DNA of 64,000 bases from positions 2,590,539 through 2,654,538 of the forward strand of contig NZ_FXXA01000002.1 in NCBI RefSeq assembly GCF_900184265.1, in the 5' to 3' direction. The position numbers were made by a program, and so were the translations under genes. The notes beneath the pieces are model-generated. The model saw only the letters and a program-made list of their open reading frames with translations, was not told the DNA's origin and searched no databases. How positions within the stretch are numbered: position 1 is the stretch's first letter; every line of letters starts with the position of its first letter. The DNA comes from Eggerthella timonensis (lineage in GTDB: Bacteria; Actinomycetota; Coriobacteriia; Coriobacteriales; Eggerthellaceae). Below are positions 17,056 to 34,660 of this stretch, piece by piece.

Positions 17056-20000
17056 CTATGCTTTCTCGATATCGACCAGGAACGCCTTGTACTCGGGAAC
17101 CCAGCAGTTCGGGTCGCCCACGTTCGGCGGCAGGTCGTTGACGATGTCGCCCGTGGCGAAATCGCCCGCCCAGCCGAAGTGGTGCGTCATGCCCACCTGG
17201 TGCACCGTCTCGCCGTTCACCTTGAACGGCTTGAAGCGCGGCGTCACCAGCGCCATGACCTCCACCGAGCCGCGGTTGTTGAACACGCGGACGCGCTCGC
17301 CGTTCTCGATGCCCTTCTCGGCTGCCAGCTCGACCGACATCTCGACGAACTGCTCGGGCATGGCCTCGTTGAGCGCGGGGCACGTGCGGGTCTGGCCGCC
17401 AGTCTGCCAGTGCTCGGTGACCGAGTAGGTGGTCACCGCGATGGGGTACTGGCTGCGGTCGCCGCGCTTGACCGACTCGAACTCGGCGAAGCGGACGCAC
17501 GGCGAGTTCTGCCGGCCGTTCATCTGGTTGTCGGCCGGGCTCTCGAAGGGCTCGTAGTGCTCGGGCAGCGGCCCGTCGCCCATGCCGTAGCTCTCCAGGC
17601 GCGCGTTCTGCTCCCACAGCATCATGAAGGCCTTGTTGTTCGGGGGAACCGGCGTGCCGTTGGACACGGCCACGAAGTCGCCGACGTCGTTTTGCACCCA
17701 CTTGTCGCCCGTCCACTCGACGAGCACCCGGTTCGGGTTCCAGGGCTTGCCCTCCATGTCGGCCGAGGCGCGGTTGTAGATGACGCGGCGGTTGAGCGGC
17801 CAGGCGAAGGAGAACTTCGGATGCAGGCCCAGCCCCGAGGGATCCTCGGTGTTGCGCCCGCCGGCGGCCTGCTCGGCCGGATCGAGCGGCGCGTCGTTGT
17901 TGGCCCAGAAGCCGGTGTAGATCCACATGCCGCAAGCCGTGGAGCCGTCGGCCTTGAGGTTCGCGAACGACGAGAGCAGCTCGGTCTTCGGGGCGGCCGA
18001 GGTCGTGTTGCACTCGGTGCCTTCGTACACGTAGCCGTTCAGGGCCCAGTTCACGGGGCGCGGATCGATCTTGCCGTCCACGTAGTAGTCCCACTTCGTG
18101 TTCAGAATGGGCTCGGGCGCCACGCCGCCTTCCTTCTTGTACACGTCGACGATGGCCGTCCACAGCACGTCGCAGATCTCGTAGTCGGGCTTGGCCTCTT
18201 CCCACGGCTCGACGGCCTGGAAGCGCCACTGCAGCCAGCGGCCCGAGTTCGCGATGATGCCGGGCTTCTCGTAGATGAGGGCCGCGGGCAGGAAGTACAC
18301 CGTGGTGTCGACGTCGGCCGGGTTCATGTCGGGGGCCTTCCAGAAGGTGGCGGACTCCGTCTCCACCCAGTCGGCCACCACGAGCCAGTCGAGGTTCGCC
18401 ATGGCGCGGCGCACGTTGCTCGCGTTCGGCGCCGAATGGCAGGGGTTCATGCCCCAGTTGAAGTAGCCCTTGATGACGCCTTGGCTCATGAGCTCGAACG
18501 AGCCGATGATGGAGTAGTCGGGGCTCTTCGGCACCTTCGGCCACCAGTCGTAGCCGTAGTCGTTGTCCACCGTGGCCGCGTCGCCGAACCACTCCTTGAG
18601 CGCGGAGACGATGAACTTCGGCTTGTTGGTGTAGTAGCCGTCGGAATAGGTTTCCTTCTCGCACCATTTGCGCAGAGACGGGGTGCCGTACTCGGTGGGC
18701 CAGTTCAGGTACCCGGGCTGGTTCGCCACGAGCATGCCCATGTCGGTGGCTCCCTGCACGTTCGGCTCGCCGCGCAGCGCGTTCACGCCGCCGCCGGCCA
18801 CGCCGACGTTGCCCAGCAGAAGCTGTAGGATGCCCATGGAGCGGCAGTTCTGCGCGCCGTAGGTGTGCTGCGTCTGGCCGAGGGCATACAGGATGGTGCC
18901 GGACTTGTCGGGAGCGCCCGTGGAGGCGTAGGTGGCGTACACCTTCTCCAGCAGGTCCTTGTCCATGCCGCACACGCTGGACACGGCGTCCAGGTCGTAG
19001 CGGGAGTAGTGCTTCTTCATCTGCTGGAACACGCACATCGGGTCCTGCAGGGTCATGTCGCGCTTCGGCACCTCGACGGTGGGAGGCGTGAACGCGGGCA
19101 CGCCCTCGGCCGCGGCCCAGGCGTAGGCGCCGCCCTCGGAGGTGTCCCATTCTTTCGTGGACTCGACCTGGTAGTGCCAGGTCTTCGCGTCGTAGGTGGC
19201 GCTGTCCTCGTCGAAGCCCGAGAAGATGCCCGCCTCCACGTCGAAGGAGTACTCCTCGTCGAGCAGGTAGGAGGCGTTCGTGTAGTTCAGCACGTACTCG
19301 TGCTGCCACAGGTCGTGCTCGATGATGTAGTTGAACAGGCCGCCGTAGAAGGCGATGTCGGTGCCCGAGCGGATGGGGCAGTAGATGTCCGCCATCTCGG
19401 CCGAGCGCGTGTAGCGCGGGTCGACGACGATCCACGTCGCGCCGTTATCGAGCGCCTTCTGCACCCACTTGGAGGACACGGGATGGTTCTCGACGTTGTT
19501 GGAGCCGATCGTCATGATGACGTCGGCGTTCTGCATGTCGCAATAGTGGTTCGTCATGGAACCGCGACCGAATGTTGCTGCCAGACCGGCAACCGTGGGG
19601 CTGTGTCAAACACGAGCCTGGTTGTCGATGGCTATCACCCCTAACGAGCGCATCATCTTGTTGATGAGGTACTCTTCCTCGGAGTTCTGCTGGCTGCCGC
19701 CCAGGCTGGCGATGCCGTGGCACCGGTTCACCGTGATGCCGTTGGCCACCGTCTCGAACGTCTCGTCGCGGGTCTTCTTGACCCACTTCGCGATCTCGGC
19801 GACGGCATCGTCCCAGGTGATGTCCTCCCACTCGGAGGCGCCGGGACGGCGCACCATCGGCTTGGTCCGGCGGTTCGGGTTCTTGATCACCTCGCGCGTG
19901 GCAGGATCCACCACGTTGCGCAGCTGGAACATCGTGGCGCCCTTCGGGCACAGACCGCCCTGGTTGATGGGGTGGTCGGGATCGCCTTCGATGTTCACCA

Positions 20001-20205
20001 GCTCGCCGTCGCGGGTGGAGCAGATCACGCCGCATCCGCCCGAGCAGTAGCAGCAGATGTTCGTGTACTCCTCCGTGTTCACGAGCTTCCAGTCGGCTGC
20101 GGGCTCGACGGCCAGCGCCTCCGACTGTGAGGACAGCTCGAACGCCATGGTAGTGGCGAACGCGGCACCGGCGGCTTTGAAGAAGCCCCTGCGTGACAGG
20201 TTCAT
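17056..20205 (-). CDS. fdhA: Formate dehydrogenase catalytic subunit, selenocysteine-containing
   Basis: 1049 aa including Sec. It oxidises formate to CO2 at a bis-MGD Mo/W centre outside the membrane. The start at 20205 has AAGGAG upstream and opens a twin-arginine signal (SRRGFFK). The [4Fe-4S] site uses Cys51 or 52, Cys54, Cys58 and Cys86. TGA at 19608-19606 is codon 200 in the context NQARV-U-HSPTVAGLAATFG, the classic formate dehydrogenase Sec site, and is followed by a recognisable bSECIS. Reading through joins two frames of 199 and about 849 codons into one full-length protein. It is first in fdhABIED, and selD starts divergently 455 bp away. Confidence 0.97.
19568..19608 (-). promoter_or_regulatory. 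bSECIS element of fdhA
   Basis: UGA at 19608-19606 is followed after 12 nt by the stem GTTGCC/GGCAGC (one G-U pair) enclosing loop GGTCT. From memory, stem position and loop closely match the E. coli fdhF element, whose GGUCU loop binds SelB. Confidence 0.9.
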
Positions 20206-20660
20206 GTCCTCGTTCTCCTTCCTTCTCGTCCGTTGAGAATCATGCCCGAGACCAGCGGGAGAACGTCGCCGAGGGCATGGGAGACGTCGTCCTGCTCGTG
20301 GTGCCGGATTGCATGGTGTGCCGGGACGGCAGCCCTCCACCGCCCGACGACCGCGATCTTAGCAAGCGCGCCAAGATGCGACGTAATCAGTTTCTGATGA
20401 TATGGGTCGTTTTATGCGCAAACGCTCAAGATTCATTCGTGGAATATTCGGTAAACGACACCCCGCCGGAAAAGCGGCAGAGCGAGCGGTCGCTTTCCCC
20501 TGGTGGGCGGCGACCCGTCTCCGGTAGACGGTACGTTTGAGGCACCGCTACGGTATCGACGAGCGGCGCGGATAACGCGTAGGCGGCAGGATGATCGACG
20601 GGTGCGCAGGACTGTTATACTGGATGCAGCAACCATCGCGTCCATGCGGAAGGAACGGCC
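20206..20660. other. fdhA-selD divergent intergenic region
   Basis: 455 bp without a gene. It contains the selD promoter (20613-20621) and an imperfect hairpin around 20468-20500 (GGAAAAGCG against CGCTTTCC). I see no clear -10/-35 for fdhA and no recognisable riboswitch. Confidence 0.5.
20613..20621 (+). promoter_or_regulatory. Extended -10 promoter of selD
   Basis: TGT-TATACT is an extended -10 (TGnTATAAT type), 39 nt before the selD ATG. There is no good -35, as expected for extended -10 promoters. The same form occurs upstream of selA. Confidence 0.5.
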
Positions 20661-21719
20661 ATGAGCGAGACCGAGCGCATACGCCTCACCCACCTCACCG
20701 AGAAGGGCGGTTGAGCGGCGAAGTGGGGTCCGGGCGACCTCGAAGAGATATTGAAGGACATCGCGCCGCCTCCCGACGCCGACCTGCTGCTGGGCTTCGA
20801 CACCTCCGACGACGCCGCCGTCTACCGGTTGAACGACGAGACGGCCGCCGTGCTGACGCTCGACTTCTTCACGCCGGTGGTGGACGATCCCTACGAGTTC
20901 GGCGCCATCGCCGCGGCGAACGCGCTGTCCGACGTGTTCGCCATGGGCGCGAAGCCGCTGACCGCGCTCAACATCCTCGCGTTCCCCTGCAGCCTCGGCA
21001 CCGACGTGGTGGGCGAGGTGCTGCGCGGCGGGGCAGACAAGGTGGCCGAGGCGGGCGCGTTCGTGGTGGGCGGCCACTCCATCGAGGACGACGAGCCCAA
21101 GTACGGGCTGTCGGTGTTCGGCACCGTGCACCCCGACCGCATCGTCAGAAACGGCGGGGCGCTGCCGGGCGACGTGCTGTTCTACACGAAGACCATCGGC
21201 TCGGGGCTCATGAACTCGGCGTTCCGCGCCGGGTTCGAGGACGACGAGGGCATGCGCCCCGTCATCGACTCCATGATGGAGCTCAACCGTGCGGGCGCCG
21301 AGGCGATGGCGAGCGTGCACGCGCATGCCGCCACCGACGTGACGGGCTTCGGGCTGGCGGGCCACCTCCACGAGATGCTCGACGCCTCGGGCGCCTCGGC
21401 CGAGCTCTTCTGGGACGACCTGCCCCTGTTCGAGGGCGCCTACGCGTACTCGTGCGACTTCTGCCGCCCCGCCAAGACGTTCGGCATCGTGGATTGGGCG
21501 CGCGCCTTCGTGGAGCAGGGCGCGCTCGACGACGAGGAGTTCGAGAACCGCATGGGCGTGCTGTGCGACCCGCAGACGTCGGGCGGCCTGCTCGTGGCCG
21601 TGGCGAGCGAGGAGGCCGACGCGTTCGCGGAGGCGTTCGTGCGCGCCGCCGGACGCCGCCCCGCGCTGATCGGGCGCGTGCGGGACGGAAAGAGCGGAAC
21701 CATCGCGATGCGCGCGTGA
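20661..21719 (+). CDS. selD: Selenide, water dikinase, selenocysteine-containing
   Basis: 352 aa including Sec. SelD makes selenophosphate from selenide and ATP, the donor for tRNA-Sec charging. The ATG at 20661 follows GGAAGGAA. An in-frame TGA at 20712-20714 (codon 18) sits in KGG-U-AAKWGPGDL, where SelD proteins carry the catalytic Cys or Sec before Ala-Lys. Downstream, GFDTSDDAAVYRL and TSGGLLVAV are family motifs. A hairpin GGGGTC-CGGGC-GACCTC begins 10 nt after the UGA. A start downstream of the UGA would remove the active site, so read-through is the only sensible model. The protein needs Sec to make Sec, a known autocatalytic arrangement. Confidence 0.95.
20712..20741 (+). promoter_or_regulatory. 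Candidate bSECIS of selD
   Basis: UGA at 20712-20714, then 10 nt, then a 6-bp stem GGGGTC/GACCTC (20725-20741, one G-U pair) with loop CGGGC containing Gs, as bacterial SECIS loops do. Confidence 0.6.
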
Positions 21720-21951: not shown

Positions 21952-22713
21952 TTATCGGACGGACATCGCCAGCAGCGCGGCGCCCACCGCGCCGGCATAG
22001 CGCGCCCGCGCGTCGGTGGCCACGGGCGAGCCGAGGCGCACTCCCAAGCGCTCGACGAAGTACCCGTTCTCGCACAGGCCGCCCGTCAGGTAGTACGGCG
22101 CGCCCTTGCCCTGCGCCGCGAGCACCGACACCCTCTCCACCACCGACTCGATCACGCCGTACGCGATGTCCTCGCGGGGCGTGCCGGTGCCGATGAGGCT
22201 GATGACCTCGGATTCCGCGAACACCGTGCACATGGACGAGATGGACGTGGGAGCGCCCGCCTGCGCGAGGCGCGCGAGCTCTCCCTGGCTGACGCCGAGG
22301 CGGTTCGCCATGACCTCGAGGAACTTGCCCGTGCCGGCCGAGCACTTGTCGTTCATCGCGAACTTCGCCACCTTGCCGCCGCGCAGCACGATGACCTTCG
22401 TGTCCTGGCCGCCCACGTCCACCACGGTGCCCTCGCCTCCGAACAGGAAACCGGCGCCCTTGCCGTGGCAGGTGATCTCGGTGACCACGCGGTTCGCGTA
22501 GGGAACGGCGACGCGCCCGTAGCCGGTGGCCACGCAGGGCGCGTCGAGCGGGTCGAAGCCCCGGGCGCGCAGCTGCTCGGCCAGGCGCTCGGCTGCGTCC
22601 ACGCTGCTGTACCCCGTCGGGCACACGAACGTCGCGACGAGCTCGCAGCCCTCGAGCACCGCAGCTTTCGCCGCCGTGCTGCCTATGTCGATGCCGATAG
22701 CGGGCATGGGCAA
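21952..22713 (-). CDS. ATP-dependent activase of the HgdC/BadF family
   Basis: 253 aa. An ASKHA-fold ATPase with a [4Fe-4S] cluster that passes low-potential electrons to 2-hydroxyacyl-CoA dehydratase or double-cubane proteins. IGIDIGSTAAK is the phosphate loop; DKCSAGTGKFLE and SISSMCTVFAESEV carry the cluster cysteines; VVDVGGQDTKVI is the second nucleotide motif. Its likely partner is the HgdB-like protein at 25322-26596, four genes upstream on the same strand. No acyl-CoA transferase or dehydratase alpha/beta pair is present, so hydroxyacid fermentation is unlikely. Confidence 0.9.
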   Translation of the reverse strand: MPMPAIGIDIGSTAAKAAVLEGCELVATFVCPTGYSSVDAAERLAEQLRARGFDPLDAPCVATGYGRVAVPYANRVVTEITCHGKGAGFLFGGEGTVVDVGGQDTKVIVLRGGKVAKFAMNDKCSAGTGKFLEVMANRLGVSQGELARLAQAGAPTSISSMCTVFAESEVISLIGTGTPREDIAYGVIESVVERVSVLAAQGKGAPYYLTGGLCENGYFVERLGVRLGSPVATDARARYAGAVGAALLAMSVR

Positions 22714-22857
22714 GATCCTTTCATTTTCTCTCTTGGCGCGGAGAAGAGCGTGCCTATCGCGCGGCGCATCGGAGCCGATGAGAGAACCCGCAGGTCGTCT
22801 CAGCGGCGCGGATGCGCCGCGGCGCCCACGTCCTCCTCCAAGCCAGGGGGCGTCGGC

Positions 22858-23097
22858 CTAGTACAGCTCCACCTCGTGCACGGCCTCGTACGCGAGCGCG
22901 CCGTCGGCGAAGGCGGCGAGCAGCGCGTCGCGTTCCTCGGCGGGAACGCACCAGGCGAGGCCGCAGCCGGCGGATATCTCGGACGGTATGGGGATCATCC
23001 TGCCTGGGAAGCCCGCCTCGCGGGCAGCGGCCTCAACGGCCATCGCATCGCTCGTGGACGCGAACGTCACCACGGCTTTCGGCGTCTTTCTGCGCAC
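22858..23097 (-). CDS. DUF3343 (putative Se/S carrier-like) protein
   Basis: 79 aa cytoplasmic protein. The short alpha/beta fold ends with a conserved cysteine in SEISAGCGLAWCVP. DUF3343 is described in Pfam as a putative Se/S-carrier-like domain and tends to occur near selD and yedF. It starts 3 nt after the cysteine desulfurase stops, so a hand-off of persulfide or selenide from that enzyme is plausible. The biochemical role is not established. A second copy occurs at 25016. Confidence 0.75.
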   Translation of the reverse strand: MRRKTPKAVVTFASTSDAMAVEAAAREAGFPGRMIPIPSEISAGCGLAWCVPAEERDALLAAFADGALAYEAVHEVELY

Positions 23098-23100
23098 GGC

Positions 23101-24243
23101 TCACGCCTCCTCGGCGATGGCGGCCACGGCGGCGATGCCGGCGTCCACCTCGTCTTCGGCGTTGAAGCTGCTGAAGCTGAACCGCACCGCGCCCTGGTTC
23201 TGGGTGCCCAGCGCCTCGTGCATGAGCGGCGCGCAGTGGGCGCCGGCGCGCGTGCAGATGCCGAACTCGGCGTTGAGCGCATCGCCCACCGCCGCGGAGT
23301 CCAGCTCGCCCACGTTGAGCGCCACGATGCCGCAACGACCCGCGTCGCCGCCCCCTCCCAGCACCCGCACGCCCTCGATGCCGCGCACGCCGCGCTCGAA
23401 CCGCTCGGCCAGGGCCCGCACCCGCGCGCCCATCTCCTCGACGCCGCGCTCCTCGATGTAGGCGAGCCCCGCGCCCAGGCCGGCGATGCCGTGGGCGTTG
23501 AGCGTGCCCGCCTCCAGCCGCTCGGGCATGCGCACGGGGTGGCGCCGGTCGTAGCTGTGCACGCCTGAGCCGCCCACCTTGAGCGGCTCCACGTCCACGC
23601 CCTCCGCCACGGCGAGGCCGCCCGTGCCCTGCGGGCCGTACAGGCTCTTGTGCCCCGTGAACGCCACGAGGTCGAGCCCGTCGCGCCCCATGTCGATGGG
23701 CACGACGCCGGCCGTCTGGGCGGCGTCCACCAGCAGCAGCACGCCGCGCTCGCGGCAGATGCGGGCGATGCGGGCGATATCGTACACGTCGCCCGTCAGG
23801 TTCGAGGCGTGGGTGACGACCGCGAGGCGCACGTTCGGCTCGAGCGCCGCGTCGAGCGCTTCGTAGTCGAGCGCCCCGCGCGCGTCGTGCGGCACCACGG
23901 TCAGCTTGCATCCGCGCTCGTCGACCGCGCGGTACAGCGGGCGCAGCACCGAGTTGTGCGACGCGGCCGTGGTCACGAGCGCATCGCCCGGGCGCACGAG
24001 CCCGTTGACGGCCGTGTTGAGCGCCTCGGTGGCGTTGCCGGCGAACGCCACGCGCGCAGGATCGCCCGCGCCGAACAGGCGCGCGAGCTGCTGGCGCGCA
24101 CGGAACACGGCATAGCCCGCGTCGAGGGACGCCTCGTGCACGCCGCGGCCCACGCCGCCGAACCCGTTGATGGCGCGCGCCACCGTCTCGGCCACCGCCG
24201 GCGGCTTGGATGCGGTGGTGGCCGCGTTGTCGAAGTAGATCAT
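23101..24243 (-). CDS. Cysteine desulfurase / selenocysteine lyase-type PLP aminotransferase (EF2568-like family)
   Basis: 380 aa class V PLP enzyme. The start at 24243 (MIYFDNAATT) is the usual N-terminus of the family. AFTGHKSLYGPQGTGGL carries the PLP lysine, SNLTGDVYDIARI lies in the core, and RAGAHCAPLMHEALGT contains the presumed reactive Cys. It would release sulfur or selenium from (seleno)cysteine. It sits between yedF and DUF3343, and this trio with selD is a known conserved neighbourhood, favouring a selenium role over general Fe-S assembly. Confidence 0.88.
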   Translation of the reverse strand: MIYFDNAATTASKPPAVAETVARAINGFGGVGRGVHEASLDAGYAVFRARQQLARLFGAGDPARVAFAGNATEALNTAVNGLVRPGDALVTTAASHNSVLRPLYRAVDERGCKLTVVPHDARGALDYEALDAALEPNVRLAVVTHASNLTGDVYDIARIARICRERGVLLLVDAAQTAGVVPIDMGRDGLDLVAFTGHKSLYGPQGTGGLAVAEGVDVEPLKVGGSGVHSYDRRHPVRMPERLEAGTLNAHGIAGLGAGLAYIEERGVEEMGARVRALAERFERGVRGIEGVRVLGGGGDAGRCGIVALNVGELDSAAVGDALNAEFGICTRAGAHCAPLMHEALGTQNQGAVRFSFSSFNAEDEVDAGIAAVAAIAEEA

Positions 24244-24278
24244 AGCTCCACGGTCCTTGTCCTCGCGCGTCTTCGACC

Positions 24279-24893
24279 CTACGGGCGGACGATGCCGCGC
24301 GCGTTCGCCTGCTTCTCCACGATCACGTACATGTTCGTGGCCTCGCCTACTTCCAGCTGCTCGGCCAACCCGTAATGGTTCAGGCACGTGCCGCAGCTCA
24401 TGACCTCCACGCCGGCCTCGGCCAGCGCGCGCAGGTCGTCGAGCGACGAGGAGCCGGCGCACGCCAGCTTCACGCCGCCGTTGTACATGAGCACCGTTTC
24501 CGGCAGCTCGTCGAGCTGGGTGAGGGCGAACACGAAGCCCTTCATGAGCACCGCCCCCAGCTCGTCGTCGCCCGACCCCATGAACTCGGACGGGATCACC
24601 GCCACGACGCCGCCCGTCGGGGTCGCCTGGACGGCCGGGCACGCGGCGTCTTGGGCAGCCGCAGCCGCGACGCTCGCCGCGCCCTTCGCGAACGTCACCG
24701 CGAACGTCGACGCCCCGCGCTCCTCGCCGGACGCCTCCACCTTGAGCGTCTTGCCGAGCGCCTCGAGGTTGTGCACCGCGGTCTCGTTGTCAACGAGCAC
24801 TTCGAGCACGCCCTCCCCCATGGCCGCGAGCGCCTTCTTGGCGCGCACCACGGGAAGCGGGCACGCCTGGCCCCGCGCGTCGATTCTCTCCAT
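24279..24893 (-). CDS. yedF: YedF-type selenium-metabolism sulfurtransferase-like protein
   Basis: 204 aa in two domains. Residues 1-75 are TusA/SirA-like with the signature GQACPLPVVRAKKAL (Cys in CPLP). Residues 100-204 are DsrE-like with VMSCGTCLNHYGL. This fusion is the family annotated as selenium metabolism protein YedF, which co-occurs with SelD. The start at 24893 has AAGGGA upstream. It would carry persulfide or perselenide; its exact reaction is unknown. Confidence 0.88.
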   Translation of the reverse strand: MERIDARGQACPLPVVRAKKALAAMGEGVLEVLVDNETAVHNLEALGKTLKVEASGEERGASTFAVTFAKGAASVAAAAAQDAACPAVQATPTGGVVAVIPSEFMGSGDDELGAVLMKGFVFALTQLDELPETVLMYNGGVKLACAGSSSLDDLRALAEAGVEVMSCGTCLNHYGLAEQLEVGEATNMYVIVEKQANARGIVRP

Positions 24894-25015
24894 CGCGATC
24901 CCTTCTTTCTCCGTCGTGCCCTTCGGCTCGCGCCGCAGGGGCTCCTTCGACTCCGACCTGCGGCCGCCGCCCGTGACGGCGAATCCCGGGCGGCCTCCGC
25001 TTGTGACGGCGCCTG

Positions 25016-25312
25016 TCAGCAAAACGTATCGCGCCGCGCGTTGAGCTGGCGCGGCAGCCGGGCGACTCCTTCGAGCGGGATGCCCTCCTCCTGCGCGAGG
25101 CGCTCGAGCAGCTCCACGTCGTCGCACGACGCAAGCAGCGACACCCCGCAGGATGCGCGCGCGGCGCGGGGTGTGGGCGATATGCGCACCGTGCGCCCCG
25201 CATCGCGCGCCGCTTCGTACAGCCGCCAACCGTCGGTATGGCTCGAGAACAGGATATAGCAATCCACGGGCCGCGGGCCCTCGTTCACCGTATCGGCAGC
25301 GTCTTGTTGCAC
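25016..25312 (-). CDS. DUF3343 (putative Se/S carrier-like) protein, second copy
   Basis: 98 aa. Same family as the protein at 22858 but divergent: the conserved cysteine lies in RASCGVSLLASCDD, and a basic C-terminal extension ends in Cys (RRDTFC). It starts 9 nt after the HgdB-like gene stops and is 122 nt upstream of yedF. Two different DUF3343 copies in one operon suggest non-redundant carriers or a heteromeric arrangement. Confidence 0.7.
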   Translation of the reverse strand: MQQDAADTVNEGPRPVDCYILFSSHTDGWRLYEAARDAGRTVRISPTPRAARASCGVSLLASCDDVELLERLAQEEGIPLEGVARLPRQLNARRDTFC

Positions 25313-25321
25313 TGATCCGCC

Positions 25322-26596
25322 CTACGCGTCCAGCATCTCGACGAACGCGCCGATACGCGTGCGCAGCTGCTCGGCGTCGTTGTCGGCGTAGTCCGTCTCG
25401 AGGCCCAGGCACGGGATGCCCTCCTCGGCGAGCGCGTCGGCCAACGAGCCCTTCTCCACGTCGTAGAGCGTGCAGAACTTGAGGTTCGCGTCGATCACGC
25501 CGTCCACCTGGTACTCCTTCGCCATGCGCACCACGTCGGCGACGCGACCCGGGTTCGGCGTGAAGCACGCGCAGTTGTTCTTCATGTAGCGCTCGGACAG
25601 CGCCTGGAACATGCCGTCGAGCGTGTCGGCGCCCTCGTCTACCTCGTTCTCGAAGTAGCGCGTGCCCGTGCACATCTCCTCGCACACCACCACGGCGCCG
25701 CTCGTCTCGATGAGGTGGTGCAGCTTCCAGTTCGGGATGGCCAGCGGCGTGCCCGTGACGAGGATGCGCTTCGTGCCGGCCGGCGCCGCGCCCTCGCCGC
25801 GCTCGATGCGCTCCTCCAGCTCGTCGGCCAGCTTGTTGGCCGTCTCGGCACAGCGCGCCGGGTCGTCGAAGAACGCGATCTGCATCATGAGCAAGGCGTC
25901 CTTGCCGCTGATGGGCACCGGGTCGGCCTTGCGGGCCTCGTACACGCGCGCCAGCGCGCGGCGCTTCTCGTTGATGAGGCGGATGGCCCGGGCCAGGTTC
26001 TCCTCGGTCAACTCGTTGCCCGTGACCGCTTCCACCTTCTTCGCGAACAGGGCGATCTCGTCCTTCCACGCCGCGATGTCCTTGGCGCGCTTCACCTGCG
26101 GAACGTCCATGACGTACGTCTCTTTGTCGGCCCCGAGGATCTCGTAAGCCTTCTTCTTGCCGTCGCACGTGGTCTCGCCCACGTACAGATCCGCCACGCT
26201 GAAGTACGGGCAGGTCCGGCCGAAGTGCGCGCCGAGCGACGCCTTGATCAGCGGGCAGATGCCGCTCGGCAGCACCTTCTCGCCTTCGGGCACCCAGAAC
26301 TGCGAGCCGCCGCACAAGCCGGTGACCGCGCCGCCGCAGGCGACGACCACCTCGTCGGGCACGAACACGCAGAACGTGCCGAACACCTTGCCCCCGCGGC
26401 TTTGCAGCTCGATGAGCTCGGCCGGGCGCACGCCGTGGATCTCGGACACCACGAAGTCGTAGAACGCCATGTTCTCCGGTCGGTTCTCCTGCGTGAGGTA
26501 CGTGTCGCCGAACGCCATCGGCAGCACGGCGCACAGCTGGTCGTGCGTTTCCAGGTCCATACCCAGGTCTTTCCACATAGCCTGATAATCAGCCAT
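25322..26596 (-). CDS. HgdB-family double-cubane-type reductase component (2-hydroxyacyl-CoA dehydratase D-like)
   Basis: 424 aa, close in length to E. coli YjiM and double-cubane cluster proteins. Many conserved cysteines: FGTFCVFVPDE, ACGGAVTGLCGG, SGICPLIKASLG, GRTCPYFSV, VCEEMCTG, NNCACF and KFCTLYD. These proteins receive electrons from an ATP-driven activase and perform difficult low-potential two-electron reductions; physiological substrates are mostly unknown. It is first of a minus-strand block with DUF3343, yedF, desulfurase, DUF3343 and activase. That context, not its sequence, suggests a selenium- or sulfur-linked substrate. Confidence 0.85.
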   Translation of the reverse strand: MADYQAMWKDLGMDLETHDQLCAVLPMAFGDTYLTQENRPENMAFYDFVVSEIHGVRPAELIELQSRGGKVFGTFCVFVPDEVVVACGGAVTGLCGGSQFWVPEGEKVLPSGICPLIKASLGAHFGRTCPYFSVADLYVGETTCDGKKKAYEILGADKETYVMDVPQVKRAKDIAAWKDEIALFAKKVEAVTGNELTEENLARAIRLINEKRRALARVYEARKADPVPISGKDALLMMQIAFFDDPARCAETANKLADELEERIERGEGAAPAGTKRILVTGTPLAIPNWKLHHLIETSGAVVVCEEMCTGTRYFENEVDEGADTLDGMFQALSERYMKNNCACFTPNPGRVADVVRMAKEYQVDGVIDANLKFCTLYDVEKGSLADALAEEGIPCLGLETDYADNDAEQLRTRIGAFVEMLDA

Positions 26597-26885: not shown

Positions 26886-27713
26886 TTACCTGCTCGCGGC
26901 CTTTTGCCGATGGACGAACCAGAACGCGAGCCCCACTGCGACGCCGCCGACGATGTTGCCGAGCGTGGCCGCCGACAGGTTCGCGGCGAGGCCGCCGAGC
27001 GTGACCGCGTCGGGAGCGCCCACGCCCATCGAGTTGAGCAGCAGCCCCATGGGAAGGAAGAACATGTTGGCGACGCAGTGCTCGAACCCGCAGGCGACGA
27101 AGGCCGAGATGGGCAGGATGATGCCGATGACCTTGTCGACGACGGTGCGCGCCGAGAAGCCGATCCATACCGCCAGGCACACGAGGATGTTGCACATGAC
27201 GCCTTTGAAGAACAGCGTGGCCCAATCGGGAGCGACCTTGCCCGCCGCCACGCTGACGAACGCCTCGCCGACCGCCCCGCCGTTCATGGCGGCGACGTTG
27301 GCGAGGAAGACGAGCGCGAGCGCGACGAGCGCTCCCGCAAGGTTGCCGATCCAGACGATCGCCCAGTTCCGCAGCAAGAGCGCCCACCCGATCCGCTTCG
27401 ACGCCTTGGCGCATACCATGAGGATGTTGCCGGTGAACAGCTCGGCCCCGCAGCACAGCACGAGCACGAGGCCGAGGCAGAAGCAGACGCCGCCCACCAT
27501 GCGCTGCACGGCGAACGGCATGGTCGGATCGCCGAGGAACACGCAGAAGTACAGCGCGCCGAACGCGATGAACGCGCCGGCGAGCATGGAGGACGCGAAG
27601 CACCTCGCCGACGGAATGGCCGCTTTCGCCTCCCCGACGGCCTCGGCCTTCGCAGCGGTCTCGGCCGGCGAGAGCGCGTCCGGCTTGAGCGTTTTGATTT
27701 CGTCTGGCGTCAT
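26886..27713 (-). CDS. focA: Formate/nitrite transporter (FNT) family channel
   Basis: 275 aa with six membrane spans, forming pentameric channels for small anions. The motifs GALYFCVFLGDP, CCGAELFTGN and FVACGFEHCVANMFFLP (selectivity-filter region and central His) match FNT proteins. Formate is the likely substrate because the formate dehydrogenase operon and Sec genes are close; nitrite or hydrosulfide cannot be excluded by sequence. It lies 290 bp downstream of its neighbour's start and is divergent from selA. Confidence 0.88.
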   Translation of the reverse strand: MTPDEIKTLKPDALSPAETAAKAEAVGEAKAAIPSARCFASSMLAGAFIAFGALYFCVFLGDPTMPFAVQRMVGGVCFCLGLVLVLCCGAELFTGNILMVCAKASKRIGWALLLRNWAIVWIGNLAGALVALALVFLANVAAMNGGAVGEAFVSVAAGKVAPDWATLFFKGVMCNILVCLAVWIGFSARTVVDKVIGIILPISAFVACGFEHCVANMFFLPMGLLLNSMGVGAPDAVTLGGLAANLSAATLGNIVGGVAVGLAFWFVHRQKAASR

Positions 27714-27978: not shown

Positions 27979-29457
27979 ATGGCGAATCCGTCACGCACCG
28001 ACCTGCTCCGCGCGCTCCCGCAGGTGGAGGAAATGCTCCAGCTGCCCGAGGTGAGCGCGCTTCTGTCGCTCGTTCCCCGCAGCGTGCTCGCCGACTGCGT
28101 GCGCGAGGCCGTCGACGAGCTGCGCCAGGCGGTGCTCGCCGACGCCTGCGACGAGGTGGACGTCCATGCGCTGGCCGACGCCGTGCGCGCCCGTGCGCTG
28201 GCCAAGGCGCGGCCCTCGCTGCGCCGCGTGATCAACGCCACCGGCATCGTCGTGCACACGAACCTCGGGCGCAGCCCGCTGGCCGACGAGGCCGTGCGCG
28301 CCGTGGAGGACGTTGCGCGCGGCTACTCCACGCTGGAGTACGACACCGAGGCCATGGCGCGCGGCAGCCGCCACGACCATGTCGAGCGCCTCGTGTGCAC
28401 GCTCACCGGCGCCGAGGCGGCGCTGGCCGTGAACAACAACGCGGCGGCCGTCATGATGGTGCTCCACGAGTTCGCGCGCGGCCACGAGGCGGTCGTGTCG
28501 CGCGGCGAGCTCGTGGAGATCGGCGGGTCGTTCCGCATCCCCGACATCATGGAGCTGTCGCAGGCCCGCATGGTAGAGGTGGGCACCACGAACAAGACGC
28601 ACGCCGTGGATTACGAGCGGGCCATCGGCGCCGACACCTCGATGGTGCTCAAGGTGCATCCCTCCAACTACCGCGTGGTGGGCTTCACCGAAGGCGTGGC
28701 CGCAGGCGATTTGCGCGCGCTGGCCGACGCCGAGAACGCGCGCCGCGCCGCAGCCGGCGAGCCGGGCGCGGGCGAGCTGCTCGTGTACGAGGACCAGGGG
28801 TCGGGCGCGTTTCTGAACCTCGAGGCGTTCGGGGCGTACGCCGAGCCCACCGTCGCCGAGTCGCTGCAGGCGGGCTGCGACCTCGTGTCGTTCTCGGGCG
28901 ACAAGCTTTTGGGCGGGCCGCAGGCGGGCATCATCGTGGGCGCGAAGCGGTTCATCGACCGCCTGAAGAAGAACCCCTACGCCCGCGCCATGCGCCTCGA
29001 CAAGATGACGCTGGCCGCGCTCGAGGCCACGCTGCGCCTCTACCTCGACCCTGCCGCAGCGCTCGAGCGCATCCCCGCGCTGCGCATGCTGTCCGAGTCG
29101 GGCGAGGCCGTGCGCGAGCGCGCCGAGCAGCTGGCAGCGGCCGTCGAGGCGGCGCTGCCCGCGGGCGCGGCGCGCGTCGGCGTCGTCCCGGAAACGGCGC
29201 GGGCGGGCGGCGGCGCGCTGCCGCTGTGCGACATCGAATCGCACGCAGTGCGCATCGAGTTTCTGCGCGGGGACGCACAGGGGTGCGAGACGTTCCTCGT
29301 CTCGCGGCGCGACGTGCCCGTGGTGGGCCGTATCAAGCACGACGCCGTGCTGCTGGACGCGCGCACCGTGGCCGAGGACGAGCTGGCCGAGGCTGCCGAG
29401 GCCGTGCGCGCCTACTTCGACGCGCTCGACGCCGAGGCCGAGAGGGGCCGGGCATGA
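27979..29457 (+). CDS. selA: L-seryl-tRNA(Sec) selenium transferase
   Basis: 492 aa, slightly longer than E. coli SelA (463). A PLP enzyme that converts Ser-tRNA-Sec to Sec-tRNA-Sec using selenophosphate. RVINATGIVVHTNLGRSPL is the family signature, and SFSGDKLLGGPQAGII carries the PLP lysine. The start at 27979 follows GAGAAAGGCG and begins the N-terminal tRNA-binding domain (RTDLLRALPQVEEML). The stop overlaps the selB start (ATGA), so the pair is co-translated. Confidence 0.97.
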   Translation: MANPSRTDLLRALPQVEEMLQLPEVSALLSLVPRSVLADCVREAVDELRQAVLADACDEVDVHALADAVRARALAKARPSLRRVINATGIVVHTNLGRSPLADEAVRAVEDVARGYSTLEYDTEAMARGSRHDHVERLVCTLTGAEAALAVNNNAAAVMMVLHEFARGHEAVVSRGELVEIGGSFRIPDIMELSQARMVEVGTTNKTHAVDYERAIGADTSMVLKVHPSNYRVVGFTEGVAAGDLRALADAENARRAAAGEPGAGELLVYEDQGSGAFLNLEAFGAYAEPTVAESLQAGCDLVSFSGDKLLGGPQAGIIVGAKRFIDRLKKNPYARAMRLDKMTLAALEATLRLYLDPAAALERIPALRMLSESGEAVRERAEQLAAAVEAALPAGAARVGVVPETARAGGGALPLCDIESHAVRIEFLRGDAQGCETFLVSRRDVPVVGRIKHDAVLLDARTVAEDELAEAAEAVRAYFDALDAEAERGRA

Positions 29458-31391
29458 GCGAGGCGACGCAGACCGACCTCGTGCTGGGCACGGCCGGCCA
29501 CATCGACCACGGCAAGTCGTCGCTCGTGCTGGCGCTGACCGGCACCGACCCCGATCGTCTGGCCGAGGAGAAGCAGCGCGGCATCACCATCGAGCTGGGC
29601 TTCGCCCGCCTCGACCTGCCGGACGGCACGAAGCTCGGCGTGGTGGACGTGCCGGGCCACGAGCGGTTCGTGCGCCAGATGATCGCGGGGTCGACGGGCA
29701 TCGACCTGGCGCTTCTGTGCATCGCCGTCGACGACGGCGTCATGCCGCAGACGGTGGAGCACCTCGCCGTGCTCGAGCTGCTGGGCATCCGCACCTGCGT
29801 GGTGGCGCTCACGAAGACCGATCTCGTGGACGAGGAATGGGCGCTGTTCATGGCCGAGGAGGTGCGGGGGCGCCTGGCGGGCACGCCCTACGCCGAAGCC
29901 GAGATCGTCCCCGTGTCCAGCCGCACGGGCGCCGGCCTGCCCGAGCTGCGCTCGGCGCTCTCGCGCGCCGCGCGCACGACGCGCCGCGCGAAGGCGGGCA
30001 CGCGCCTGCGCCTGCCCGTCGACCGCGTGTTCAGCATCAAGGGCGCCGGCACCGTGGTCACGGGCACCCTGTGGAGCGGGTCGGCGCAGGTGGGCGACGA
30101 GGTGGAGGTGCACCCCTCCGGCCTGCGCACGCGCGTGCGCAGCGTGCAGGTGCATGGCGCGCCCGTCGAGCGCGCCGAGGCCGGGCACCGCGTGGCCCTC
30201 AACCTGAACGCGGTGTCCGTCGACGAGGTGCGCCCCGGCGACTTCCTTGCCGCGCCGGGCGCCGCGAGCGCCACCGACCGCTTCGACGCATCGCTTTCCT
30301 ACCTGGGCGTTCCCGGAAAGGGCAAGCCGCTCGCCAGCGGCGCGCGCGTGCACGTGGCGCACGGGACGCGCGAGGTGACGGGGCGCGTGCTGCTCATGGA
30401 CGGCCGGGAATCGCTCGCCGCGGGCGAGCGCGCCTACGCGCAGGTCCGCCTCGACGAGCCGCTGCCCGTGGCCTGGCGCGACCGCTTCGTCGTGCGCTCG
30501 TACTCGCCGGTGCACGTCATCGGCGGCGGCGAGGTGCTGCGCGCCCGCCCGCGTCGCACCACCACGCTCGCGCCCGGGGCGGCCGAGCTGCTCGACGCGC
30601 TGCGCGCGGGAGACGAGGCGGCCGTGGCGCGATCCGCGTTCGCGTTGGCCGCCGCGCCCGTCACCGCCGCCGAGCTGGCCGCGCTTTCGGGGCTCGAGGA
30701 GGACGCGGCCGCGCGCGAGCTCGAGGCGCTGGCCGCGGGCAACGCCGCGGTGCGCCTCGGAGGCGACGGCGGGCGCGCGGTGCGCTACGCGGCGGCCTCC
30801 GTGCTGCAGAAGCAGCGCTCCGCAATCGAGAACGCGCTTTTGAAGTTCCACGCCGAGAACCCGTCGGCCACCGGCATCTCGAAGGACGCGCTGCGCGGGC
30901 GCTGCCTGCCGCGCCTGGACGCGAGCTGCTTCGACGTGCTGCTGGACGACGCCGTCGCCCGGGGCCTGGCCGTGGTTGACGGCGGCGAGGCGAGCCACCC
31001 GAAGGCGGGCGCCGGGGCGCGCAAGCTGGAGGAGCAGGCGGCGGCGCGGCTGCGCGAGACGCTGGCCGCCGCGGCAGGAGCGCCGCCTTCCACGAGCGAG
31101 CTCGTCGCGACGAGCGGCCTGGACGCCTCGCTCGTCCACCGCGTGCTGGGCGGCCTCGAGAAGCAGGGGCTCGTGCGCCGCATCGGCGCGGACTTCTACT
31201 TCGATGCGACGGCGCTCGCCGCCTTCGAGCAGGCCGTGCGCGCCCGCCTCGCCGATGGCCCCGCCACGGCGGCAGAGCTCAAGGACGCGATGGGCACGAG
31301 CAGGAAGTACGCCATCCCCCTGCTCGAGTTCTTTGACGCCCAAGCCGTCACCCGCCGAGAGGGGGACGTGCGCGTGCTGGGCGGAAGGTAG
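29454..31391 (+). CDS. selB: Selenocysteine-specific elongation factor SelB
   Basis: 645 aa. The GTPase brings Sec-tRNA to UGA codons next to a bSECIS. G1 motif GTAGHIDHGKSSL at residues 13-25, DVPGHERF (G3), TKTD (G4), then the EF-Tu-like barrels and, from about residue 380, winged-helix domains (GLEEDAAAREL; LDASLVHRVLGGLEKQG) that bind the SECIS loop. The start overlaps selA by 4 nt. It is convergent with tRNA-Sec. Confidence 0.97.
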   Translation: MSEATQTDLVLGTAGHIDHGKSSLVLALTGTDPDRLAEEKQRGITIELGFARLDLPDGTKLGVVDVPGHERFVRQMIAGSTGIDLALLCIAVDDGVMPQTVEHLAVLELLGIRTCVVALTKTDLVDEEWALFMAEEVRGRLAGTPYAEAEIVPVSSRTGAGLPELRSALSRAARTTRRAKAGTRLRLPVDRVFSIKGAGTVVTGTLWSGSAQVGDEVEVHPSGLRTRVRSVQVHGAPVERAEAGHRVALNLNAVSVDEVRPGDFLAAPGAASATDRFDASLSYLGVPGKGKPLASGARVHVAHGTREVTGRVLLMDGRESLAAGERAYAQVRLDEPLPVAWRDRFVVRSYSPVHVIGGGEVLRARPRRTTTLAPGAAELLDALRAGDEAAVARSAFALAAAPVTAAELAALSGLEEDAAARELEALAAGNAAVRLGGDGGRAVRYAAASVLQKQRSAIENALLKFHAENPSATGISKDALRGRCLPRLDASCFDVLLDDAVARGLAVVDGGEASHPKAGAGARKLEEQAAARLRETLAAAAGAPPSTSELVATSGLDASLVHRVLGGLEKQGLVRRIGADFYFDATALAAFEQAVRARLADGPATAAELKDAMGTSRKYAIPLLEFFDAQAVTRREGDVRVLGGR

Positions 31392-31455: not shown

Positions 31456-31552
31456 TGGCGGAGATGTGTGCGAATCGAACACACCCGAGACGTTCTGCAC
31501 GCCTCACAGCGGCTTTGAAGGCCGTGGGGCCCACCAGGACCCATCCATCTCC
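31456..31552 (-). tRNA. selC: tRNA-Sec (anticodon TCA)
   Basis: 97 nt including encoded CCA. The 5' GGAGATG pairs with CATCTCC before G-CCA; the anticodon loop is CTTCAAA with TCA (CGGCC/GGCCG-type arm); there is a long variable arm; the T arm has GTGTG-TTCGATT-CGCAC. Length and anticodon identify tRNA-Sec, which decodes the UGA codons of fdhA, selD and the left-edge reductase. Upstream GGTACTAT near 31580 may be its -10, and GGTGCC-GAC-GGCACC forms a small hairpin in the leader. Confidence 0.95.
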
Positions 31553-32328: not shown

Positions 32329-33267
32329 TCAGCAATTCCCCACGAGCACGTCGTCCAGGTGGCGGCGCGCCACGTCGGCGAGCGCGCGCAGGGCGGGCAC
32401 GGGCGTCGGGGGCCGATCGAGCATGCGGTGGCAGGGAAAGAACCGCGTGAGATGGTACGGGATGCACGGATCGAGCGATGCCAGCCAGGCCGCCGCCGCG
32501 TCGATCTCGTCGGGATCGTCGTTGAGGCCGGGGATCACGAGGGTCGTCACCTCGAGATGACACGCCGGATCGGCGGCCAGCGTCTCGATGGTGCGCTTGA
32601 CGGCGGTCAGATCGCCGCCCGCCAGGTCGTAGAACCCCTGCGTGAACCCCTTGAGGTCGATGTTGGCCGCGTCCACGACGCCGAGGAGCTCGGCGAGCGG
32701 CTCTTCGTTCACCATCCCGTTGCTCACCAGCACGTTCACGAGGCCCGCCTCGTGCGCGAGACGTCCCGCGTCGCGCACGTACTCGTAGCCCACGAGCGGC
32801 TCGTTGTAGGTGTAGGCGATGCCGACGCACCCGTCGTCGCACGCGCCGGCGGCCAGGCGCACCGCCTCCTCGGGGGAAAGCTCGCGCCATGCCGCATCGT
32901 CGGCCCCCGCGCACGCGATGCTCGCGTTCTGGCAGAACGGGCAGCGCAGGTTGCAGCCGTAGCTGCCCAGCGACAGCACCGTCGAGCCCGGGCGGAACCG
33001 CGCGAGCGGCTTTTTCTCCACCGGGTCGAGCGCGATCGAGGTGACGCGCCCGTAGTTCTCGTCCACCACGCGCCCGCCGCGCGCCACGCGCGCCCGGCAG
33101 ATGCCGCGCGCTCCCTCGGCGAGCGTGCACGCGTGCGGGCACACGCCGCAGACGGCGCGCGGGGAAGCGCCCCAGAACCGCACGGGATCCTTCGACTCCG
33201 CGCTGTCCCTTCCGCTCGGGACGGCGCCCTTGCCGTCAGCCACGGCGCGCCTCTCCCCCGCGTTCAT
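32329..33267 (-). CDS. amrS: AmmeMemoRadiSam system radical SAM enzyme
   Basis: 312 aa. The radical SAM cluster motif is CNLRCPFCQN, preceded by another cysteine motif (CGVCPHACTL), as in AmrS proteins. The family always travels with AMMECR1 and Memo proteins; its reaction is unknown. The start overlaps the preceding Memo-AMMECR1 gene by 32 nt, giving tight coupling. A later start would cut the CGVCPHAC motif, so the upstream ATG is kept. Confidence 0.92.
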   Translation of the reverse strand: MNAGERRAVADGKGAVPSGRDSAESKDPVRFWGASPRAVCGVCPHACTLAEGARGICRARVARGGRVVDENYGRVTSIALDPVEKKPLARFRPGSTVLSLGSYGCNLRCPFCQNASIACAGADDAAWRELSPEEAVRLAAGACDDGCVGIAYTYNEPLVGYEYVRDAGRLAHEAGLVNVLVSNGMVNEEPLAELLGVVDAANIDLKGFTQGFYDLAGGDLTAVKRTIETLAADPACHLEVTTLVIPGLNDDPDEIDAAAAWLASLDPCIPYHLTRFFPCHRMLDRPPTPVPALRALADVARRHLDDVLVGNC

Positions 33268-34660
33268 GGCGCACCACCTCGAACCGTTCGAGCTCCACGT
33301 CGTCGTCGAACAGGTCGATGCCGGCCTTGCGCTTCGCGATGTCCACCTGCTGCTGCGCCGAGTCCACGCCCTCGAGGTTCGGCAGCAGCAAACCGCGCTT
33401 CCACCCTTTCGTCACGATCACGCCGTAGCGCGCGGGATCGAGCTCGTCCACCGAGTCGATGGGCATGGGCGTGAGCAAGACGTCCACCGAGTACGACAGC
33501 GCATCCAGCTCTTCGGGCCGCACGGGCGGGAAGCGCGGGTCCTCGGAGGCCGCCGCCACGCCGTTGCGCACGATCTCGGCCGCCACGCTGCCGGTGACGG
33601 GAGCGACGGTGCCGATGCACCCGCGCAGCTCGCCGCGCTCGTGCAGCGACACGAACACGCCGGCTCGCTCGTCGGCCAGCTCGGGCGGCAGGTCGTCCGG
33701 CAGCGCGATGGGGCTTCTCGTGCGCACGAAGCCCTCGACGCTCGCCCGCGCCAGCGCCACGTACGGATCGACGCGCGCGCCGTCGGCCGCGGCGTCCTCG
33801 GCGTCGAGCGCGTCGGCGCGCTCGTCGATGCCCGAGCGCACGGCCCCGTCGCCGGATGCGCCCTGCACCTCGAAGGCGGCCACGGCGTAGCCCACGCCGA
33901 ACGGCCCCTCGTAACTGAGCAGCTCGTGCGAGAACGGTCGGCCCTCCAGCGCGCCGGCCATGATCCAGAACGCCCGCAGACCGCATTCGGCCGCTTCCTC
34001 GGCGAACGCCTCGTCGATGTCGATCAACCCGTCCAGGTCGCCCGCATCGAACAGCGCGGTCACCGTACGGTCGAACACGGGTCCTTGCGGCGCATAGCCG
34101 TACGGGCCCTCGGCCGCCAGCTTGTGGGACAGATCGCCGCTCGCGACCAGCACGCAGGTGCGGTCGAGGTCGTCGGCCGCCTCGGCGATGCAGCGCCCCA
34201 TGGCGAGATGCGTCTCGGGCGACAGGCCCGAAAGCCCGATGCGCACCACCTCGTAGCCGGTGTAGGCCTCGTTCACGAAATGCAGCGGCACGAAGGTGGC
34301 GTGATCGAGTTCGCCGTCGCGCATGCCGCTGCCGCACAGCGGCACCGTGTGCTTGCGCGCGCAGGCGGCTATGGAGGCGCCCATCGCGCCGTCGTAGGGC
34401 ACGGTGACGGACGCGTCCCATGCCCCGAACCTTCCCATGTCGCCGTGCCCGGCCTCGCCGGTGGACACGTGGAAGCAGTCGCGGAACAGCGGCGCATGGG
34501 GCGAGACGACCACGATGGTATCGGGAGCGTGCGCGGCGATACGGCGCGCCACCTCGCGGTACGCGTCTACGGTGTCCTGGATGGCGCGCTCCTGCCCCCG
34601 ACCCACAGCGGGCACGATGAGCGGCGGGTGCGGCACGGCGTACGCGGCGACGATTCCCAT
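33236..34660 (-). CDS. Memo (LigB-like) and AMMECR1 fusion protein
   Basis: 474 aa. Residues 1-270 are the Memo/class III extradiol dioxygenase-like domain (YAVPHPPLIVPAVGRG; VVVSPHAPLF; VLVASGDLSHKLA). Residues 300-470 are AMMECR1 (LHERGELRGCIGTVAPVTGS; SEDPRFPPVRPEELD). The start at 34660 has GGAAGGGAG upstream. In many bacteria the two domains are separate or fused as here, and they accompany the radical SAM gene downstream. Function unknown; RNA or small-molecule modification has been guessed. Confidence 0.92.
   Translation of the reverse strand: MGIVAAYAVPHPPLIVPAVGRGQERAIQDTVDAYREVARRIAAHAPDTIVVVSPHAPLFRDCFHVSTGEAGHGDMGRFGAWDASVTVPYDGAMGASIAACARKHTVPLCGSGMRDGELDHATFVPLHFVNEAYTGYEVVRIGLSGLSPETHLAMGRCIAEAADDLDRTCVLVASGDLSHKLAAEGPYGYAPQGPVFDRTVTALFDAGDLDGLIDIDEAFAEEAAECGLRAFWIMAGALEGRPFSHELLSYEGPFGVGYAVAAFEVQGASGDGAVRSGIDERADALDAEDAAADGARVDPYVALARASVEGFVRTRSPIALPDDLPPELADERAGVFVSLHERGELRGCIGTVAPVTGSVAAEIVRNGVAAASEDPRFPPVRPEELDALSYSVDVLLTPMPIDSVDELDPARYGVIVTKGWKRGLLLPNLEGVDSAQQQVDIAKRKAGIDLFDDDVELERFEVVRHERGGEARRG

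Follow-up and report, generated by a model that had tools for sequence, protein, structure and literature searches.

The family of the double-cubane-cluster protein (DCCP), an HgdB-like reductase, occurs almost only in selenium-using microbes, an association strongly supported by the genome comparisons presented here. The representative studied lies in a 64,000-nucleotide stretch of the Eggerthella timonensis genome (3.9 Mb), positions 2,590,539 to 2,654,538 of contig NZ_FXXA01000002.1 (the window). Its gene opens an operon that also encodes an HgdC-like activase, two DUF3343 selenium/sulfur carriers, YedF, and a desulfurase. The core of this module consists of DCCP, the activase, and a DUF3343 carrier, which probably work together as an ATP-driven low-potential reductase of the selenium supply, at the SelD step or before it. 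The selenium-linked module is real and broad and has been noticed provisionally before; the enzyme family is known, and its role is newly supported.

All six minus-strand genes listed in the initial annotation (HgdB-like, HgdC-like, two DUF3343, YedF, and desulfurase) are present and match the corresponding family profiles, and selD lies directly beside them, as that annotation said, on the plus strand and convergent with the activase gene. The genes are separated by gaps of about 9, 122, 35, 3, and 144 bp; in order from the first gene, they are:

25322..26596, minus strand: DCCP, the double-cubane-cluster reductase, type A, 424 residues, first gene of the operon (NF040772, 482.8 bits, cut-off 350; PF06050, 409 bits)
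25016..25312, minus strand: DUF3343 carrier a, adjoining DCCP (PF11823, 65.2 bits, E = 3.6e-18)
24279..24893, minus strand: YedF, a TusA domain with a CPxP motif followed by a DsrE-like domain (TIGR03527, 198.7 bits, cut-off 110, model positions 1-194)
23101..24243, minus strand: EF2568-type class V aminotransferase/cysteine desulfurase, similar to selenocysteine lyase (TIGR01977, 397.8 bits, cut-off 377)
22858..23097, minus strand: DUF3343 carrier b, adjoining the desulfurase (PF11823, 79.8 bits, E = 1.1e-22)
21952..22713, minus strand: HgdC-like activase, an ASKHA ATPase with MNDKCSAGTG and SSMCTVFAESEV motifs (TIGR00241, 225.7 bits, cut-off 125.4)

Curated NCBIfam cut-offs are passed by all of these proteins except the two DUF3343 carriers, which pass the Pfam cut-off. 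The desulfurase was also compared with the selenocysteine lyase SclA (NF040779), for which its score of 302.7 bits falls under the cut-off of 525, and it is assigned to TIGR01977 instead. DUF3343 a is proposed to be the dedicated carrier of DCCP.

By its profile score and cysteines, the reductase is a predicted double-cubane-cluster protein. Full-length identity to its nearest solved relative, the DCCP of Carboxydothermus hydrogenoformans (PDB 6ENO), is 51%, and the two share eight cysteines (C76, C95, C114, C129, C144, C309, C342, and C375); BzdN and HadC are only distant relatives. These cysteines are kept in 97 to 100% of 143 type A sequences and in 42 of 42 sequences of the shorter type B, which includes E. 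coli YjiM (38% identical to the DCCP of the window). In a quick tree, the type B clade has a support of 0.957; type A, at 0.157, is not well supported as a clade, although it contains no foreign sequence. Two HGD-D proteins with DCCP-profile scores of 258 and 292 bits (genomes G232 and G355) lack one of the eight cysteines and were not counted as DCCPs. Relatives of the activase in PDB are 1HUX, 9GAI, and 7YYL_E. It is encoded in the same operon as the DCCP, as a dedicated partner, and 132 of the 163 DCCP loci have an activase gene no more than 3 kb away. Phage proteins matched are distant relatives only. Several loci (L080 and similar ones in genus g22 of family f3, as well as L073 and L075) have types A and B adjacent in the same selenium operon, which contains just one activase gene, possibly a heteromeric or two-substrate arrangement.

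The link to selenium use was surveyed in about 570 genomes. The samples were 149 genomes of Coriobacteriia, 196 of Clostridia drawn evenly, 178 of Desulfobacterota, and 48 further genomes of many phyla picked solely for encoding a type A DCCP; 14 control genomes were also searched. In Clostridia, selD is found in all 24 genomes with DCCP versus 26 of the 172 without it (50 of 196 overall; Fisher p 3e-17, phylogeny being ignored in this and the following test), and DCCP is found in none of the 146 selD-negative genomes. The association is specific within the superfamily: Clostridia that encode related HGD-D proteins and no DCCP are not enriched in selD (10 of 30; p 0.2). A DCCP above the cut-off is encoded by 68 of the 149 Coriobacteriia, and 67 of these have selD, compared with 119 of 149 overall. 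Of the 48 further type A genomes, 47 have selD. Among the controls, DCCP, DUF3343, and selD (above the cut-off) each match the same two genomes, E. coli and Methanocaldococcus jannaschii.

The initial annotation had suggested counting how often HgdB and HgdC genes co-localize with yedF, DUF3343, and selD; this count shows linkage above chance. In samples drawn regardless of gene context, DCCP lies within 10 kb of selD in 30 of the 67 Coriobacteriia genomes with both genes (about 0.8 expected) and in 3 of 24 Clostridia genomes (about 0.2 expected). This co-localization is not restricted to the lineage of the window, as would have spoken against a selenium role, and spans many phyla. DCCP adjoins selD, selA/selB, or yedF in Desulfosporosinus (L107), Halanaerobium (L121), Syntrophaceae (L151), Lachnospiraceae (L176), and several Desulfobacterota (L246 to L254), as well as in metagenome-assembled genomes of Dehalococcoidia and another member of Chloroflexi (L132 and L135), WOR-3 (L129), two Actinobacteria (L133 and L177), and Bathyarchaeota (L152). 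Out of 163 DCCP loci, which were partly hand-chosen and many of which sit on contigs that end close to DCCP, 50 have selD, selA, selB, or yedF no more than 10 kb away, a number that rises to 83 when the desulfurase and DUF3343 are also counted. In a neighborhood census with no preset gene list, the commonest neighbors after the activase include the desulfurase, an ABC ATPase, SelD, YedF, DUF3343, a LysR regulator, a YedE-like transporter, and SelB. A GGDEF protein, a LarC-like protein, and prephenate dehydratase also appear, through lineage synteny; these aside, the census returns the set proposed for selenium homeostasis by Lin et al. 2015.

The core recurs as a triad. A frequent order in Lachnospiraceae, Clostridium, and Peptostreptococcaceae is (desulfurase)-DCCP-DUF3343-activase, E. 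coli K-12 encodes DCCP-activase-DUF3343 as yjiM-yjiL-ytiA, and in 36 of the 163 loci a DUF3343 gene lies no more than 400 bp from DCCP. Twelve Coriobacteriales loci with yedF and without DCCP (L084 to L087, L089 to L095, and L100) retain the desulfurase and selD in nine cases and an intact activase in none, so that DCCP and activase tend to go as a pair and are dispensable to selenium use. Locus L088 (genome G126, C1:144000-162000) represents DCCP loss in progress: two short pieces of the gene (model positions 1-76 and 280-372) adjoin intact yedF, DUF3343, selD, activase, and desulfurase genes.

The position of DCCP in the pathway is indicated by organisms that use selenium in different ways. 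In Clostridia, selA is present in 15 of 15 type A genomes versus 37 of 196 overall. Nine genomes encode type B without type A, and three of these nine (G256, G298, and G342) have selD and no selA. Two of the three (G256 and G342) contain the run yqeC-yqeB-yedF-selD-DCCP-activase-mocA followed by an xdhC-like gene or xanthine dehydrogenase, which is the operon type of selenium-dependent molybdenum hydroxylases. DCCP and activase thus stand beside selD both in a selenocysteine (Sec) island and in a Sec-less operon for a selenium cofactor, which points to a common step at or before SelD and to a role of DCCP shared by Sec users and selenium-cofactor users. A role confined to formate dehydrogenase, suggested by the island around the window operon, is disfavored by the type B DCCPs in molybdenum hydroxylase operons without selA. 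The same operons disfavor a role in Sec insertion, although type A strictly follows selA in Clostridia.

The following scheme would account for these arrangements. The desulfurase, as a Sec-lyase-like enzyme, and YedF would produce and carry zero-valent selenium as perselenide, and the DUF3343 protein adjoining DCCP would present the perselenide, or a small oxidized selenium species, to the reductase. Spending ATP, the activase would load the double-cubane cluster with electrons, with which DCCP might reduce the selenium to selenide, to be phosphorylated by SelD. In this scheme, we infer the reaction, the substrate, ferredoxin as the electron donor, and a product that feeds SelD. Our confidence in any one substrate is much lower than in the supply role: selenite, perselenide, and methylated selenium are possible candidates, with a slight preference for zero-valent or perselenide selenium over selenite. 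The final reduction of thioredoxin-bound, selenite-derived selenium to selenide for SelD has been stated to be open, and the Km of SelD for selenide, 20 to 46 µM, lies in the toxic range (PMC8538045), so that controlled production of selenide on site would make sense.

Several observations weigh against a supply role. DCCP is missing from 52 of the 119 Coriobacteriia and 26 of the 50 Clostridia with selD; since roughly every second selD genome does without it, it is dispensable. In Desulfobacterota, selD is so common (165 of 178 genomes) that co-occurrence says nothing, and the Fisher tests, as noted, take no account of phylogeny. In roughly half of the DCCP loci, those of deep-branching Coriobacteriia among them, DCCP-activase stands without selenium genes nearby. 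Five genomes encode DCCP without a detected selD, four of type A (G130, G169, G489, and G490) and one of type B (G485). For G169, G489, and G490, this may reflect assembly gaps or a recent loss of selenium use. Older Se(0)/selenide potentials differ from the value of -0.23 V adopted here. If the standard potential of HSe-/Se(0) is -0.23 V (PMC3544706), ferredoxin could be enough by itself and ATP would not be required; a stronger thermodynamic case, in which the Se(0)/selenide couple is too negative for ferredoxin, was therefore dropped.

Regarding the loci just mentioned, in L045, L058, L062, and similar ones from deep-branching Coriobacteriia, DCCP-activase is found beside GGDEF, LarC-like, or prephenate dehydratase genes, in an arrangement conserved within the lineage, with selD elsewhere in the genome. 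The type A loci of the selD-less genomes are L082 (G130:C14), L144 (G169), L258 (G489), and L259 (G490); the G130 genome is about 99% complete.

Some of these observations would suit other functions. DCCP might be a salvage enzyme that cleaves the C-Se (or C-S) bonds of methylselenol, dimethylselenide, or selenosugars and thereby frees selenide. Such inert bonds suit ATP-driven electrons better than Se-S bonds do, a patchy occurrence fits the use of one particular source, and DCCP and its reductase have been found in clusters with corrinoid Se/S-methyltransferases (PMC10418091). However, the genes around DCCP encode inorganic selenium/sulfur carriers and a desulfurase, and corrinoid methyltransferases are not among the annotated recurrent neighbors in the census, which was no test for them by name; we regard salvage as possible but unlikely. 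The near-strict nesting of DCCP genomes within selD genomes, even where the two genes are unlinked, fits a selenium consumer equally well, that is, a protein that in vivo has selenium in its cluster or as the bridging chalcogenide, with YedF and DUF3343 as its loading factors. The presence of the family in a selenium-cofactor operon beside yqeB and yqeC agrees with this. Nevertheless, the desulfurase, DUF3343, and YedF are neighbors of the supply type, five DCCP genomes have no detected selD, and the solved proteins are described as [8Fe-9S], not selenium, proteins (PMC11971306), which makes a consumer improbable. The same low probability applies to its specific form, a selenide that bridges the two cubanes of DCCP in vivo, loaded by DUF3343/YedF from SelD-dependent selenium. 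If true, a selenide-bridged DCCP would add a new kind of selenium cofactor to Sec, selenouridine, selenoneine, and the labile selenium of molybdenum hydroxylases.

A sulfur module, in which DCCP reduces persulfide or sulfane sulfur on the carriers, or keeps sulfur off selenium carriers, would make selenium incidental. The DUF3343 and TusA families also handle sulfur, and Lin et al. 2015 (PMC5322559) did not find a selenium-specific DUF3343 branch. A module of this kind would be expected to be common in selD-negative anaerobes, yet DCCP is nearly confined to selD genomes and is encoded by none of the 146 selD-negative Clostridia, and we consider such a module quite improbable. Finally, the superfamily is shared with HadBC and Bzd, and a reaction of the 2-hydroxyacyl-CoA dehydratase or benzoyl-CoA reductase type on an acyl-CoA, with DCCP placed among selenium genes by chance, would be a further alternative. 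It appears highly improbable. The genome encodes a single HGD-D family protein, so that a second subunit is absent and the two different HGD-D subunits of a 2-hydroxyacyl-CoA dehydratase (HadBC/HgdAB) are not available; the two-subunit reading is rejected. The protein scores far under the HadC and BzdN cut-offs (108.5 bits versus 700 for HadC), its nearest solved relative is a DCCP, and non-DCCP relatives show no link to selD.

The reading that DCCP, activase, and DUF3343 supply reduced selenium to SelD can be compared with what is known of related systems. The C. hydrogenoformans pair, DCCP and its reductase DCCP-R (6ENO, 7YYL, 7YZM, and 7YZQ), resembles the window pair in the 51% identity and eight cysteines of DCCP and in an ASKHA activase of similar size. 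However, in sequence the activase of the window resembles MbdQ and HgdC more than DCCP-R, and the window genes, unlike the C. hydrogenoformans pair, sit in a selenium operon. Only in vitro activities on acetylene, hydrazine, and azide, and no assigned physiology, are available for the C. hydrogenoformans protein, and what the double-cubane protein does in the cell is regarded as an open question (PMC11971306). The E. coli operon yjiM-yjiL-ytiA combines a (type B) DCCP, an activase, and DUF3343 in a Sec-decoding organism, but it is located away from the sel genes and does not include the desulfurase or YedF. The EF2568/SelD region and the operons of selenium-dependent molybdenum hydroxylases (yqeB and yqeC) share YedF, DUF3343, desulfurase, and SelD as neighbors; those of two Clostridia contain DCCP-activase, whereas the window has the Sec machinery instead, and neither yqeB nor yqeC was seen beside its operon.

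The system is not undescribed, as the initial annotation had it. The genes that Lin et al. 2015 proposed for selenium homeostasis (YedE, YedF, DUF3343, LysR_Se, and Sec lyase) are neighbors in common with the DCCP loci, and Table 1 of that paper (PMC5322559), a STRING table, contains an identical run of six genes in Slackia heliotrinireducens, Shel_25420 to Shel_25470, that includes the activase and a 2-hydroxyglutaryl-CoA dehydratase subunit around SelD/YedF. In its text, as searched by term, a selenium role for HgdB or the activase is not discussed; they appear in table rows only. A 2023 preprint (PMC10418091) calls DCCP "provisionally linked to selenium metabolism" and, citing Lin et al. 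2015 and Haft and Gwadz 2023, draws it together with its reductase among the putative genes of selenium metabolism in type I mlp gene clusters. Those clusters center on corrinoid methyltransferases, in contrast to the recurrent DCCP neighborhoods described above. Beyond these two papers, the present analysis adds the quantified restriction of DCCP to selD genomes with a control from within the superfamily, the location in Sec-less selenium-cofactor operons, the DCCP-activase-DUF3343 triad, found also in E. coli, and the tendency of DCCP and activase to be lost together. The annotated idea of an ATP-driven reduction of selenium or sulfur species that feeds SelD is upheld in part: the selenium link is strong and spans many phyla, and the chemistry is put forward as a proposal. 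Across many phyla, the phylogenetic profile links the question of the role of DCCP with that of the final reduction that provides SelD with selenide, and predicts an enzyme that serves users of both selenocysteine and selenium cofactors. The yjiM-yjiL-ytiA operon of E. coli K-12 offers a tractable system for a direct test by the standard formate dehydrogenase assay.

The operon is located between selD and, past a FocA-family transporter, selA-selB-tRNA-Sec, with fdhA beyond selD. These features are:

17056..20229, minus strand: fdhA, Sec-containing formate dehydrogenase (stretch read through, TGA at its codon 208; ATG about 24 bp inside the upstream end)
19553-19611: selenocysteine insertion sequence (SECIS) element SECIS_3 in fdhA (RF01989, 66.7 bits)
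20661..21719, plus strand: selD with Sec at residue 18, read through (TIGR00476, 335 bits on the short open reading frame, 358.6 bits with one TGA inside)
26886..27713, minus strand: FocA-family formate transporter, upstream of the operon and between it and selA (PF01226, 232.5 bits)
27979..29457, plus strand: selA, placed from sequence; recovers selA homologues in other loci
29454..31391, plus strand: selB, placed from sequence; recovers selB homologues in other loci
31456..31552, minus strand: selC, tRNA-Sec (ARAGORN; RF01852, 69.9 bits)

The start of selD in the list of open reading frames (20751) is too late; the true start is at 20661, with an in-frame TGA as codon 18 (MSETERIRLTHLTEKGG-U-AAKW), which makes SelD a selenoprotein, as it is in most of the selD genomes searched here. 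The Rfam models give no match to a SECIS element at selD. The fdhA gene is split by open reading frame callers at its TGA. Downstream of it are genes that resemble those for its electron transfer and membrane subunits and fdhE/fdhD. Directly past the tRNA-Sec gene, at positions 32329-34660 on the minus strand, the window encodes an AMMECR1-MEMO fusion and its radical SAM partner (the AmmeMemoRadiSam system).

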